64,000 nt of DNA from Flavobacterium sp. H122 (lineage in GTDB: Bacteria > Bacteroidota > Bacteroidia > Flavobacteriales > Flavobacteriaceae). How positions within the stretch are numbered: the first letter of the stretch is position 1; every line of letters begins with the position of its first letter. Below, piece after piece: positions 3,545 through 56,062 of the stretch. The notes beneath the pieces were generated by a model, which did no database searches, was not told the DNA's origin, and was given only the letters and a program-made list of their open reading frames with translations. Both the position numbers and the translations under genes were made by a program. The stretch spans positions 175,543 through 239,542 of the forward strand of contig NZ_SJZD01000005.1 in assembly GCF_004959765.1 (NCBI RefSeq). Reading direction: 5' to 3'.

Positions 3545-4066
3545 ATGGCAACAGGAAAAATTTTAAGGCTGACAATTTCTCTAATGATTTTAGGCTTCGT
3601 GATTTATTACTTTTATCCGGAAGACAGACTTCCAACCAATATCCAAATTGACAGGCTTGTTGTTAATAAATCGAAAAGACAGATGCATGCCTACGCTAAC
3701 GGGCAACTTGTCAAGACCTATAAAATTTCACTTGGCAAACAGCCGATTGGTGACAAGGAAATTGAAGGAGACAAAAAAACTCCGGAAGGCATTTACTTCA
3801 TCAACGATAAAAACCCGAATAGCGGTTACCATAAAAACTTAGGTATTTCTTATCCTAATAAAGAGGATATTGAAAATGTAAAAAGCCTTGGATTGCCTGC
3901 CGGGGGTGATGTTAAAATACACGGACTTAGAAACGGAGTTGGATTTATAGGCAAATTTCATCGTTGGCACGACTGGACTTTAGGATGTATAGCAGTTACT
4001 GATGAAGAAATTGATGAACTTTATAATGCAGTAAAAATTGATACTCAAATCGAAATCCTGCCTTGA
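3545..4066 (+). CDS. L,D-transpeptidase (YkuD family)
   Basis: One N-terminal membrane anchor (about residues 8-24) leads into a YkuD catalytic domain. The catalytic histidine is in 'KIHGLRN' (His126), and the nucleophile is Cys148 in 'DWTLGCIAVTDEE', close to the family signature HG-x(14-17)-(S/T)xGC(I/V)R-(M/L). At 173 residues it is a minimal, single-domain form like those of the ErfK/YbiS/YcfS/YnhG relatives. It probably makes 3-3 peptidoglycan cross-links or ties proteins to the cell wall in the periplasm. The Arg that normally follows the Cys region is replaced (Cys-Ile-Ala), a common variation in Bacteroidota members. Confidence 0.85.
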   Translation: MATGKILRLTISLMILGFVIYYFYPEDRLPTNIQIDRLVVNKSKRQMHAYANGQLVKTYKISLGKQPIGDKEIEGDKKTPEGIYFINDKNPNSGYHKNLGISYPNKEDIENVKSLGLPAGGDVKIHGLRNGVGFIGKFHRWHDWTLGCIAVTDEEIDELYNAVKIDTQIEILP

Positions 4067-5544: not shown

Positions 5545-5947
5545 TTACATCAACTTTTGAGTAGTAATTTTCATTGCCGTTTTCGGCCTCTAAAACCAAT
5601 TCTTTATCTGAAATCTTTACGACTTTATCCTTGTGTTTTCCAAAGGAAGAACTGAACTCCAAATATAATCCGTCTTTATTTTCAACAGTTTGTATCTGTT
5701 CCTGCAGATCATCTGTCAAAAATTTACCGTTAGGCTGCCAGCGTACTTTTTTGTGGAAACCGGTTTTATTTTTAAACTCAAAATAATCGTAGTTTTCATT
5801 TGCCTTATATTCTTTTTCCTCGCCTTCGGCAGTTTCAACTTTCGCAATCTGCCAGTAGCCATTCAAATGATTTAACTCCGAAACTTCTACTTTTTCCACA
5901 CATGAGAAAAAGAATAAACCAAGTAAACTTATCAGTAATCTTTTCAT
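5525..5947 (-). CDS. Lipocalin-like lipoprotein, hypothetical
   Basis: The ATG at 5947 gives an immediate lipoprotein signal (MKRLLISLLGLFFFSC, lipobox FFFSC), whereas the longer frame starting at 5965 adds six residues ahead of it and is less likely. The mature part begins 'LNGYWQIAKVETAEGEEKEY', the G-x-W start of a lipocalin-like barrel, and continues with alternating strands ('YDYFEFKNKTGFHKKVRWQPNGKF', 'GLYLEFSSSFGKHKDKVVKISDKELVLE'). It lies directly upstream of the DUF721 gene and overlaps it, so the two are probably one transcript. Ligand unknown. Confidence 0.65.
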   Translation of the reverse strand: MKRLLISLLGLFFFSCVEKVEVSELNHLNGYWQIAKVETAEGEEKEYKANENYDYFEFKNKTGFHKKVRWQPNGKFLTDDLQEQIQTVENKDGLYLEFSSSFGKHKDKVVKISDKELVLEAENGNENYYSKVDVNGETTK

Positions 5948-52742: not shown

Positions 52743-54464
52743 TTACACTTTCTTTCTAATTCTGTTTTTGTAATAATTAGTAAATATTTCACAATTTGAA
52801 ATCATTTCTTCATATTCATCTTTATATTTAAATTTAAAATTTTTAAATGATTTTCCATTCAACTTCTCCTTTAATTTATAATACTCCATATCCCAGAAAT
52901 AGTCTCTTTTGGTCAAGTATTCATACTCATTTTTTCTGGCTTCACATTTTGCAATCATGTAAGCACACAGCACCTTAAACTTATCATCTTTAGTATATTT
53001 AAAAGCTTGTTCATAAAGATTTTTTGCCTGTGAACATGTATAATATTCCTTCTCATCCTTCATATTAGCTTCAGCGGCAGAAGATGACCAATAAATCCTT
53101 TTGAGCATCCAAGAATTACCATAATAACTCATATTGTAATAACAGTTAGCAGCAAGAAAATAATCTATATCTCTTCTAGCGTTCTTAACGTTTTTTGCTC
53201 TTTTTAAATAATTTATTAATTCAAGAGTTACTTTAGCTTTTGTAAAATTGTTTGCCGTTTGCTTAGAATCATAATTCATATAACCCTTTATTTTATAAAA
53301 AGGATTTTCATTAAATAAAAGGTTTGTGTAATGTGTTTTGCTAATTTTAGAAAAATAAAAGTAAGCTTGTTCCAGCTTGTCTTCCCTCATATATTTAACA
53401 CCTAATAAATCATAAACCCGATTGGGATCATTTTTCAATATTCTTTTTTTCCATCTATCAAATGAATCTGATTTCAAATTCATTTCATTAACAATCTTTT
53501 GAAGATCAAGTGTATTTAAATCTGCATCTATATATCCATACCAATCACTATAAAAATCATCTTGTAATGTAATTTTACGTGTACGTGATTTCCAAAAGAT
53601 TGAGTTTACACTATCGTATTCTCCATCCAATATTATCTGAGAAATTAAATACCCAGCATCTACTTTATTATTTAAAAACTCTAGTTCTTTTGCTATCGCA
53701 AACAAAAAGGAAAAATTTTTATTCTTTGATTCTCTTAAAACAATAGGTTTTATTTCACCTAAAATAATTGCTTTATCTATTTTTTGATTAGCAGTTAAAC
53801 TCAAGGCTTTTACTATATCTAATTGTCTTTTTATATCTTTATCTATGCCCTTTCTCTCTAAAGGTTTCAATGTTTGAATGGAACTATTGTAATCTTTGGT
53901 CAAAAATTCTAAATAACTTTTTACTAGCAAATAAAAATTTTTATTCTCTACTTTTTCGAAATCTAATTTACTTACTACTTCTAAAAGTTTTTCCGCATAT
54001 TTCCTATCTACTTCTACCCTATTTAATAATCTGCCTGAATTTGTATTTTCCCAATAATCAGGCCTTAAAGCCGGTAAAAACATAGTATAAATTGGAGTTA
54101 GCACCCAGTCTTCAATTTTATTAATTTCTCTTAATAAAAGAAAACTTAAACCAATATTAGCAGGATCTAGTTCAATTACTTTTTGTATGGCATCTAAGTT
54201 AGGTTTGATGTTTTTAAAAGAATACAAAACATAAACATTTGCTTTTTCCTGATTTGTTTTTGCAAACTTTAAAACTTGTCCTAAAGGAATATTTTTATTG
54301 AAATGCCATTGAATATTAAACCTATTATCAGTACCTCTAACAAAAACCTGAGCTGCCAAAAAGTTAGCCTTCACCTTATCCTCTTCGGCGTTCATCCTGT
54401 AATACAATGCCCAATTATCAATAAAATCTTTTGTTTTAAATTGATTTATATATTCGCGATACAA
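52743..54464 (-). CDS. Long C-terminal fragment of a broken secreted protein
   Basis: No ATG or GTG lies at the start of this frame: the earliest start codon is a TTG at 54464, and the coding-like sequence continues upstream ('KKRYYYQIFKLLDYSSYANQ') until about 54540, into the frame of the gene at 54535-55053. The two are therefore parts of one gene of about 770 residues, split at a run of nine A on the coding strand. The body is helical with many Tyr/Asn/Asp residues and short TPR-like or helical-repeat stretches ('AYFYFSKISKTHYTNLLF', 'SQAKNLYEQAFKYTKDDKFKVLCAYMIAK'). Function unknown. Confidence 0.75.
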   Translation of the reverse strand: MYREYINQFKTKDFIDNWALYYRMNAEEDKVKANFLAAQVFVRGTDNRFNIQWHFNKNIPLGQVLKFAKTNQEKANVYVLYSFKNIKPNLDAIQKVIELDPANIGLSFLLLREINKIEDWVLTPIYTMFLPALRPDYWENTNSGRLLNRVEVDRKYAEKLLEVVSKLDFEKVENKNFYLLVKSYLEFLTKDYNSSIQTLKPLERKGIDKDIKRQLDIVKALSLTANQKIDKAIILGEIKPIVLRESKNKNFSFLFAIAKELEFLNNKVDAGYLISQIILDGEYDSVNSIFWKSRTRKITLQDDFYSDWYGYIDADLNTLDLQKIVNEMNLKSDSFDRWKKRILKNDPNRVYDLLGVKYMREDKLEQAYFYFSKISKTHYTNLLFNENPFYKIKGYMNYDSKQTANNFTKAKVTLELINYLKRAKNVKNARRDIDYFLAANCYYNMSYYGNSWMLKRIYWSSSAAEANMKDEKEYYTCSQAKNLYEQAFKYTKDDKFKVLCAYMIAKCEARKNEYEYLTKRDYFWDMEYYKLKEKLNGKSFKNFKFKYKDEYEEMISNCEIFTNYYKNRIRKKV

Positions 54465-54534
54465 GTCAATTGATTCTTGGTTTGCATAAGAAGAATAGTC
54501 TAAAAGTTTAAAAATTTGGTAATAATATCTTTTC

Positions 54535-55053
54535 TTAACTATTGTTTTTTTTTATGGATACTATCTTTTTTTTAGCAAATGCAATTTTTTTCTGAATAAA
54601 CTGATTTTTCTTGTAATCCTCTTTTTCCCAAAGTTCATTACTGTTTGTCTCAGCAATTTTTTCAACTTCTTTGGCAAATTTCAAATAATCTATTGTCTCA
54701 AAATCTTTGCTTTTAAATAAATATTGAATAAATAAATTTTTGCTTTTTCCATTACATTCTTCGATCCCAATTTCAAAAATTGCTTTTCTAATCTCAGGCA
54801 ATGAAACCTTGTATTCACAATGCTTTTGCCATTCGACATCATTTTCTGTAATATTGCTGTTCAATTTAGTATCATCTCCTGAATAATAATTATAATAAGT
54901 ATAATTATACATCCAAAAACGATCATATTTAAAGTTTTGAGGATTAAAAACACTAAACCGTATATCTTCACCGTATGGATAAAAATAACACGCATAAGTA
55001 TTTGGTATAAAACTAAATACTAAAAGAAGTGTAAAACTTACCCAAAGTTTCAT
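54535..55053 (-). CDS. N-terminal fragment of the broken secreted protein (signal peptide)
   Basis: Signal peptide 'MKLWVSFTLLLVFSFIPNTYA', then 'CYFYPYGEDIRFSVFNPQNF' and 'EVEKIAETNSNELWEKEDYKKNQFIQKKIAFAKKKIVSIKKNNS' before the stop at 54535. The frame shifts at a 9-A run just before the stop: removing one A would join it smoothly to the large frame downstream. The true gene product would be about 770 residues. Its start lies 41 bases inside the end of the previous gene in the operon (55013-56062). Confidence 0.75.
   Translation of the reverse strand: MKLWVSFTLLLVFSFIPNTYACYFYPYGEDIRFSVFNPQNFKYDRFWMYNYTYYNYYSGDDTKLNSNITENDVEWQKHCEYKVSLPEIRKAIFEIGIEECNGKSKNLFIQYLFKSKDFETIDYLKFAKEVEKIAETNSNELWEKEDYKKNQFIQKKIAFAKKKIVSIKKNNS
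54545..54553 (-). other. Homopolymer A9 (coding strand) causing or allowing frameshift
   Basis: Nine T on the + strand at 54545-54553, reading as nine A in the coding strand between codons for Ser-Ile and Asn-Asn-Ser. Removing a single A restores the frame to 'K-T-I-V-K-K-R-Y-Y-Y'. Confidence 0.85.
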
Positions 55054-56062
55054 AATTGTAAGATTTTAAATTGTTAGAATCTAAGTGAAATAATATTACT
55101 GTACTTTTTTTATCAAGCTGTACTTTTGACTTCAATATTTTTATAACATCCTGCACAGTATTTTGATTGACTTCTTCAAACTTTAATTTATCACCCTGTC
55201 GGTAATAAACTTCATTTATAACACTGTCCTTAGTAACTTCATACCACAGACTACTTTTTCTTGTTGCAATTTTTTTTAAATCACCTGCATTTAAATTTGT
55301 AAATCTTTGAAATTGGTCATATTGATAGTGATAACACCAAGAAAATATCGGCAAAGCGATATCCATATGCAGTGGATATTTTTCAACTACAGTTAAATAT
55401 GATTTTAATTCTTCAATATCAAGAATAGAATTTTTTGATTTACTTTCAAAAGGCTGCATTAAGTTATAACACATTAAAGTGACCTTTTTAACGGGAGGAA
55501 CCCCCATCTTACTTCTGTATTTATATGGATACAAGCGTAAAGTACAACTCAAATCAATTTTCGATTTTTTATGAAATTCTCTCAAAAAGTAAAAATAATT
55601 TTCTTTAGATTTTAATGTCCAATCACAATCAAATTGAATTTCCTTAATCTCATTGTTCTTTGTAGAAAAGTGCTCCCTCTTGTATTTTTTTACAAGAAAT
55701 TCAACATTTGAAATTAAAGTATCTATTTCACTCTTTGAACTTTTGATAAAAACTTCATTTTTAATAAAAACAGCAGGGACAACATTACTATTAACTTCTT
55801 CATTCTTACCCTCATAATTATAGATATCCAATCTGTTTTTTGAAATAGGAATGTTACCCATTGTTTCATCATGTGTGACTTCAAAAAATTTAACATAAAG
55901 CTTTTTAACATTTAAGGTGTCTAAGCATTTATTTTCATCATCACTTAAACTATATTCACCTGATTTCCAATAATAAAAAGCACGTTCAACTCTATCAATT
56001 TTATTATCATGACAAGAGACAAGCAATACTAAAAATAGTATACCAAAAAAAAGGTGTTGCAT
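55013..56062 (-). CDS. Lipoprotein of unknown function with GH18-like barrel pattern
   Basis: The ATG at 56062 gives 'MQHLFFGILFLVLLVSC' with lipobox LVSC. The longer frame to 56134 adds 24 residues of no signal-like character. The mature region holds 'EIKEIQFDCDWTLKSKENYFYFLREFHKKS', which resembles the beta-4 motif (D-x-x-D-x-D-x-E) of glycoside hydrolase family 18 barrels, except that the position of the catalytic Glu is Thr; then 'VPPVKKVTLMCYNLMQ' and 'PLHMDIALPIFSWCYHYQ' fit later barrel strands. So it may be an inactive GH18-like protein; this is an inference. It overlaps the next gene by 41 bases. Confidence 0.6.
   Translation of the reverse strand: MQHLFFGILFLVLLVSCHDNKIDRVERAFYYWKSGEYSLSDDENKCLDTLNVKKLYVKFFEVTHDETMGNIPISKNRLDIYNYEGKNEEVNSNVVPAVFIKNEVFIKSSKSEIDTLISNVEFLVKKYKREHFSTKNNEIKEIQFDCDWTLKSKENYFYFLREFHKKSKIDLSCTLRLYPYKYRSKMGVPPVKKVTLMCYNLMQPFESKSKNSILDIEELKSYLTVVEKYPLHMDIALPIFSWCYHYQYDQFQRFTNLNAGDLKKIATRKSSLWYEVTKDSVINEVYYRQGDKLKFEEVNQNTVQDVIKILKSKVQLDKKSTVILFHLDSNNLKSYNYETLGKFYTSFSI

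Follow-up and report, generated by a model that had tools for sequence, protein, structure and literature searches.

A predicted secreted helical protein of Flavobacterium sp. H122, interrupted by one base at a nine-A run in an assembly with further genes out of frame at long A/T runs

In the 64,000-nucleotide stretch of Flavobacterium sp. H122 DNA analysed here (the window), two adjoining minus-strand reading frames, 54535-55053 and 52743-54545, are, by comparison with homologous proteins, one gene of about 770 residues, whose frame is lost at a run of nine A on the coding strand (A9; 54545-54553, minus strand, nine T on the plus strand). On the reading that we prefer this would be an ordinary flavobacterial gene, which follows a GH18-like lipoprotein gene in a unit of two, and its A tract would be read as nine, not eight. 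The surplus base is probably an unprogrammed change of tract length rather than an evolved switch. As to its cause, a homopolymer over-call in the assembly is the leading single explanation and may well be correct, if short of what we would call likely, while a genuine frameshift of recent origin, leaving just the N-terminal domain of the protein, is a possible but lesser candidate. Taken alone the window gene matters little: its product is a conserved, dispensable-looking secreted protein that either owes its interruption to a single misread base or has been lost from one strain. The genome-wide pattern of which it is part is the more interesting lead.

The position of the frame change is closely defined. 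The 5' part (54535-55053, minus) begins with ATG and encodes 172 residues, comprising a signal peptide (the N-terminus is signal-peptide-like as judged by eye) and an N-terminal domain, and terminates just past the A9 run. The 3' part (52743-54545, minus) spans about 600 codons and, from its open frame and a model of the intact homologue L031, would form a TPR-like α-solenoid. The two open frames share 14 nt (54538-54551), of which A9 occupies the upstream half; the 5' frame stops just after A9 and the stop closing the 3' frame reaches into its start, so that the frame must change within this overlap, in or beside A9. The run carries one surplus base, and eight A would preserve the frame. A second run (A8; 54566-54573, minus) lies just upstream and is the sole other run of at least eight in the gene. 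Within the first 40 codons of the 3' frame the sole possible start (ATG, GTG or TTG) is the TTG at 54464, which opens a 573-residue frame (52743-54464, minus), and the frame remains open from there back to A9. A sequence-only reading of this DNA had described a first frame with a signal peptide and a second with neither ATG nor GTG near its start, meeting at nine A from which deletion of one would restore continuity, and all of this holds. It had also proposed that coding sequence extends upstream of the second frame's start as far as A9, which the open frame bears out together with alignments of the 3' piece to homologues L345 and L346 that begin at its residue 1, upstream of the TTG.

Comparison with relatives argues strongly for a single gene. 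When the 5' and 3' pieces were searched separately against genomes of the genus (one genome per species), matches to the 3' piece turned up in 51 of 150 genomes and matches to the 5' piece in 32 (own genome included in both); outside the own genome, the 31 genomes matched by the 5' piece all have it within open frames of 751-806 residues. Among loci L002-L080 both pieces occur together in 67 ORFs, with the 5' piece found in 69 and the 3' piece in 81 (the two collections share some records). In a larger sample the 3' piece was present at E <1e-40 in 62 of 398 genomes, and 59 of the 61 non-own genomes have an open frame of at least 750 residues, counting one (G284) that lists stops inside the match; the two exceptions are a frame that begins at a contig edge (G003) and a split gene (G248). 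The earlier expectation of one protein of about 770 residues belonging to an uninterrupted family is thus confirmed, the close homologues being continuous frames of about 750-790 residues. In the closest relatives the pieces abut; in L345, residue 165 of the 5' piece aligns at position 172 and the 3' piece begins at 175. The closest relatives, G273 and G189, share 55% identity in the 3' part and align across the junction, and no relative above 55% in that part was found among 398 + 120 genomes. That the frames are two genuine genes, the second starting at TTG 54464, would fit the 573-residue frame which this codon opens; however, both parts lie in one frame in those 67 ORFs, the protein match of the 3' part reaches upstream of the TTG to A9, and the two relatives with split genes (L040 and L065) are split at other positions. 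We consider separate genes extremely improbable and reject them, as homologues carry both parts in one frame.

The intact protein is predicted to be a secreted, mostly helical, TPR-like solenoid. The model of L031 is nearly all-helical (mean pLDDT 85.7) and has no Foldseek match at E 0.001 or better. A second structural look returned TPR-type solenoids at large rmsd, the best of them SprE of the type 9 secretion translocon (VIA Z 11.2, rmsd 10.2), values in the usual range for helical repeats. The TPR_2 profile matches 5 of 35 family members weakly (E up to 0.1), and beyond such weak TPR matches no Pfam or NCBIfam family covers the protein. The junction corresponds to residue 171 of L031, which the model places between two helices where the solenoid begins, so that a truncated product would consist of the N-terminal domain alone.

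Directly upstream on the same strand lies the partner gene (55013-56062, minus), which overlaps the 5' part by 41 nt and encodes a lipoprotein-like product with a GH18-like TIM barrel; its start at 56062 is taken from the ORF, and searches used 55016-56056. The arrangement recurs in 74 of 79 loci, and the partner also precedes the split gene of L065; it is not directly upstream in L023 and L068, which begin at a contig edge, nor in L079 and L080, which have it elsewhere. The partner model forms a TIM barrel (mean pLDDT 91.5) that matches SleL (4s3k) with E 3.8e-12, Z 19.3 and rmsd 4.4 over 277 residues, placing it in the GH18 TIM-barrel fold. Searching solved structures by sequence profile was uninformative for the solenoid and the partner protein alike. 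In GH18 enzymes the catalytic Glu stands next to a D-x-D-x motif. All 36 partner sequences carry an unchanged D-C-D-W motif, and none has the Glu, its place being taken by T in 32, S in 3 and A in 1; the window protein reads D-C-D-W-T. The two genes may thus encode proteins that are secreted as a pair, in which a GH18-like lipoprotein, inactive or carbohydrate-binding, accompanies a helical scaffold.

The tract itself is not shared by the family. None of 30 distinct homologues (27 + 4 with one shared, as L002 has the same sequence as L031) has an A-run of eight or more at the junction, while some carry runs of 8-11 A at other, scattered positions inside open frames. The junction is therefore not a conserved programmed site, and a programmed frameshift was rejected on this ground. 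A canonical -1 ribosomal frameshift was rejected by direction, since with one surplus base the ribosome would have to shift +1 or -2, unlike at a -1 heptamer. The same comparison bears on the suggestion in the sequence-only reading of a contingency locus, in which replication slippage would alter tract length and switch the protein on and off in sub-populations. The secreted product and the closeness of A9 to an A8 would suit such a locus, as would the G273 gene described below, but the tract is kept in none of the 30 homologues (relatives of at most 55% identity in the 3' part), runs of at least eight being scattered elsewhere, and the other broken genes of the own genome share no switching theme. 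Phase variation thus finds no comparative support, and we regard it as quite unlikely.

The family has been broken elsewhere as well. In F. hibisci (L040, identical in sequence to L351 of G248) the gene is split at ~5680-5780 with no homopolymer of at least six nearby, and in F. algicola (L065) at ~5982, at an A8; in both the partner gene is open. The solenoid gene thus appears to be lost now and then by different lesions, which makes real loss in the window plausible and counts against an over-call.

If the break is real it would be recent or bypassed. No second lesion occurs within the 600 codons of the 3' part, and neither relaxed selection nor acceleration was detected there in trees built for each part: the window branch measures 0.89 (5' part) and 0.40 (3' part), closely similar to the branch of the intact L031 (0.88 and 0.44). 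With L003 as outgroup, changes unique to the window sequence versus L031 number 20:10 and 76:60, higher for the window in both parts; with four other outgroups the order in the 3' part is reversed, the window having fewer such changes than L031. A long-decayed pseudogene is rejected by the absence of further lesions and of acceleration. Given this lack of relaxation, the break is either recent, an artefact or circumvented in function.

To place the gene in its genomic setting we examined other frame changes in the assembly, an AT-rich 3.33 Mb in 47 contigs. Across 644 kb (29 stretches and the window) coding frames change directly at 191 places, mostly between ordinary neighbouring genes. Only four lack a possible start nearby and have at least 240 nt of coding sequence on both sides: the window gene (A9), L173 (A9), L177 (A13) and L167. 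The last, near position 3885 of its locus on contig C12, is a change between frames of 1421 nt and 2821 nt with no homopolymer of at least six at the junction, the only listed run being a T7 at a distance of 51 nt.

A survey of the A/T runs themselves took in all 54 runs of at least ten (the genome count is 54) and 112 of the 158 runs of exactly nine. At 341 A8 sites, 138 runs lie in frame and no break is convincing; at the 112 A9 sites 30 lie in frame and 3 mark breaks; at the 54 longer sites 2 lie in frame and 12 mark breaks, 11 without dnaX. These rows were set by eye: a T9 in L220 was dropped as chance, a second run in L204 was counted with the first, and four A8 junction calls were judged not convincing. 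Besides the window gene, thirteen genes are out of frame at runs of at least nine. In six, recognisable parts of one protein stand on both sides of the run: an MvdC-type ATP-grasp protein (L120), a DUF4369 plus AhpC/TSA protein (L173), a glycosyltransferase 2 plus DUF2062 protein (L177), a peptidase M1 (L191), a histidine kinase (L200) and an M15 dipeptidase (L181). The other seven (L189, L194, L204, L215, L231, L234 and L235) are recognised from coding frames alone, and a Pfam scan of L194, L215, L234 and L235 gave no support for one protein. No common switching theme was found among the broken genes. One surplus base is seen in 9 of 9 breaks at exactly A10 or T10, and also in the window gene, L177 and dnaX; L120, L173 and L204 are in the other phase. 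Both mutS and mutL are intact open frames, so that there is no obvious mutator, and on these two genes a mutator arising from lost mismatch repair is rejected.

Relatives examined in the same way do not share this pattern. In G189, G022, G010 and G133, 101 sites of ten or more include 5 runs in frame, 4 dnaX genes and no other break, and 69 A9 sites include 5 in frame and no break. Three of these genomes (G022, G010 and G133) were searched for runs of exactly ten, so that longer runs enter only by chance, and G189 contributed 30 of its 33 sites of ten or more and 42 of its 120 A9 sites. Nine junction calls at the longer control runs comprise the 4 dnaX genes and five (L433, L441, L272, L258 and L291) read by eye as gene boundaries or non-genes, and all 3 A9 calls were likewise read as boundaries. 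At runs of at least ten the own genome is an outlier, with breaks to in-frame runs at 11:2 versus 0:5 in the four relatives (Fisher p 0.0025, exploratory, the sites being non-independent and the comparison made after the pattern was seen). At A9 alone the ratios are 3:30 and 0:5 (p = 1), so that the excess and its steep rise with length hold for runs of at least ten and are not significant for nine. Two further genomes, G231 and G273 (10 loci each), have 4 runs of at least ten in frame and one break, a G231 call (L377) being read by eye as a gene boundary. The break lies in G273 (L384, 1340-2175), where a gene for a Dam-family adenine methyltransferase is out of frame at T11; it is a candidate phase-variable gene, and length-variable tracts may accordingly occur in the genus.

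The over-call leads among the explanations because 11 non-dnaX genes of the own genome are out of frame at A/T runs of at least ten, and none is at 101 such sites in the four relatives. Over-reading of long A-runs would account for the excess, for its steep rise with length and for the mostly constant surplus of one. Other observations weigh against it. No convincing break occurs at A8 runs, breaks at A9 alone are not significantly more frequent than in relatives, and in-frame A9 runs are commoner in the own genome (30 of 112 versus 5 of 69 in relatives), a surplus that over-calling does not explain. In addition, three A9 runs that share their flanks within the tandem repeat of L121 agree with one another. 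This repeat (contig C1, 650-655 kb) is an array of about eight 314-bp units, some with A9 and some with A7. Taken together, the genome-wide breaks point more to over-calling, or to a true burst of tract expansion, than to a switch in the window gene.

Slippage of RNA polymerase offers a different way to read a true A9, and the genus provides a precedent for it in dnaX. A search with the dnaX context pattern picked out 67 of 150 genomes. Among 30 dnaX loci read (29 of the 67 and the own copy; L315-L344 and L179, a 31st locus being another gene), an A10 is out of frame by the same amount in 27 and in frame in 2. In the own copy (L179, contig C1, ~9.1 kb) the sequence to either side of the tract matches DNA polymerase III gamma/tau. 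This copy is out of frame at an A12, the only length other than A10 seen, which is possibly another sign of length inflation, or a real expansion. A two-ORF dnaX with ten A has been attributed to transcriptional realignment (PMC3711429), and the layout described there is the one found in the own genome and in 27 of the 30 loci. From this layout the genus probably has a slipping polymerase. In the window gene the template would then truly hold nine A, and slippage would yield a minority of in-frame transcripts and from them some full-length protein, as the sequence-only reading had also suggested. The open frame of the 3' part and its slower evolution relative to the 5' part would agree with such a rescue. 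The required mRNA changes differ, however, the window gene needing one A fewer or two more and the A10 of dnaX one A added or two fewer; the dnaX tract is conserved across the genus and that of the window gene is not; and the four relatives with the same A10 dnaX layout have no other out-of-frame A10 gene. What survives of the suggestion is that slippage may occur in the genus; for this gene rescue is possible and not favoured, and we would give it little weight.

A described counterpart of the junction is tssM1 of Citrobacter rodentium, where transcriptional frameshifting occurs at 11 A, and where slippage and both products were demonstrated (PMC4256274). As there, an A-run stands just before a stop with the rest of the protein in another frame; the window run is shorter and known from sequence. 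Products of the 11-A tssM template were found with 10 to 15 A, a range that includes the loss of one A but consists mostly of gains. According to two further papers, selection against A/T runs shows at length nine in a large proportion of 108 bacterial genomes (PMC1088944), and flavobacterial endosymbiont genes with homopolymer frameshifts may still work (PMC3971599). A search of the literature on Flavobacterium phase variation, transcriptional slippage and 454 homopolymer frameshifts, in titles and the beginnings of abstracts, returned nothing on the present case. By analogy with insect endosymbionts, this Flavobacterium might carry a dozen or more genes truly out of frame at A-runs of at least nine, the window gene among them, that are tolerated via RNA polymerase slippage, a reading we think unlikely. 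Were it true, many useful genes would lie out of frame at long A-runs and polymerase slippage would act as a general buffer outside endosymbionts; were the pattern an artefact, about a dozen gene calls in the assembly would be wrong. Poly-A frameshifts accompanied by polymerase infidelity have reportedly been described in insect endosymbionts, by Tamas et al. in 2008 and Wernegreen et al. in 2010. The present genome differs from these in its size (3.3 Mb), in having surveyed relatives that lack the pattern and in being known from an assembly, in which over-calling may occur; it resembles them in its AT-richness and in having several genes whose frame is broken at A-runs of roughly nine or longer while the downstream frame stays open.
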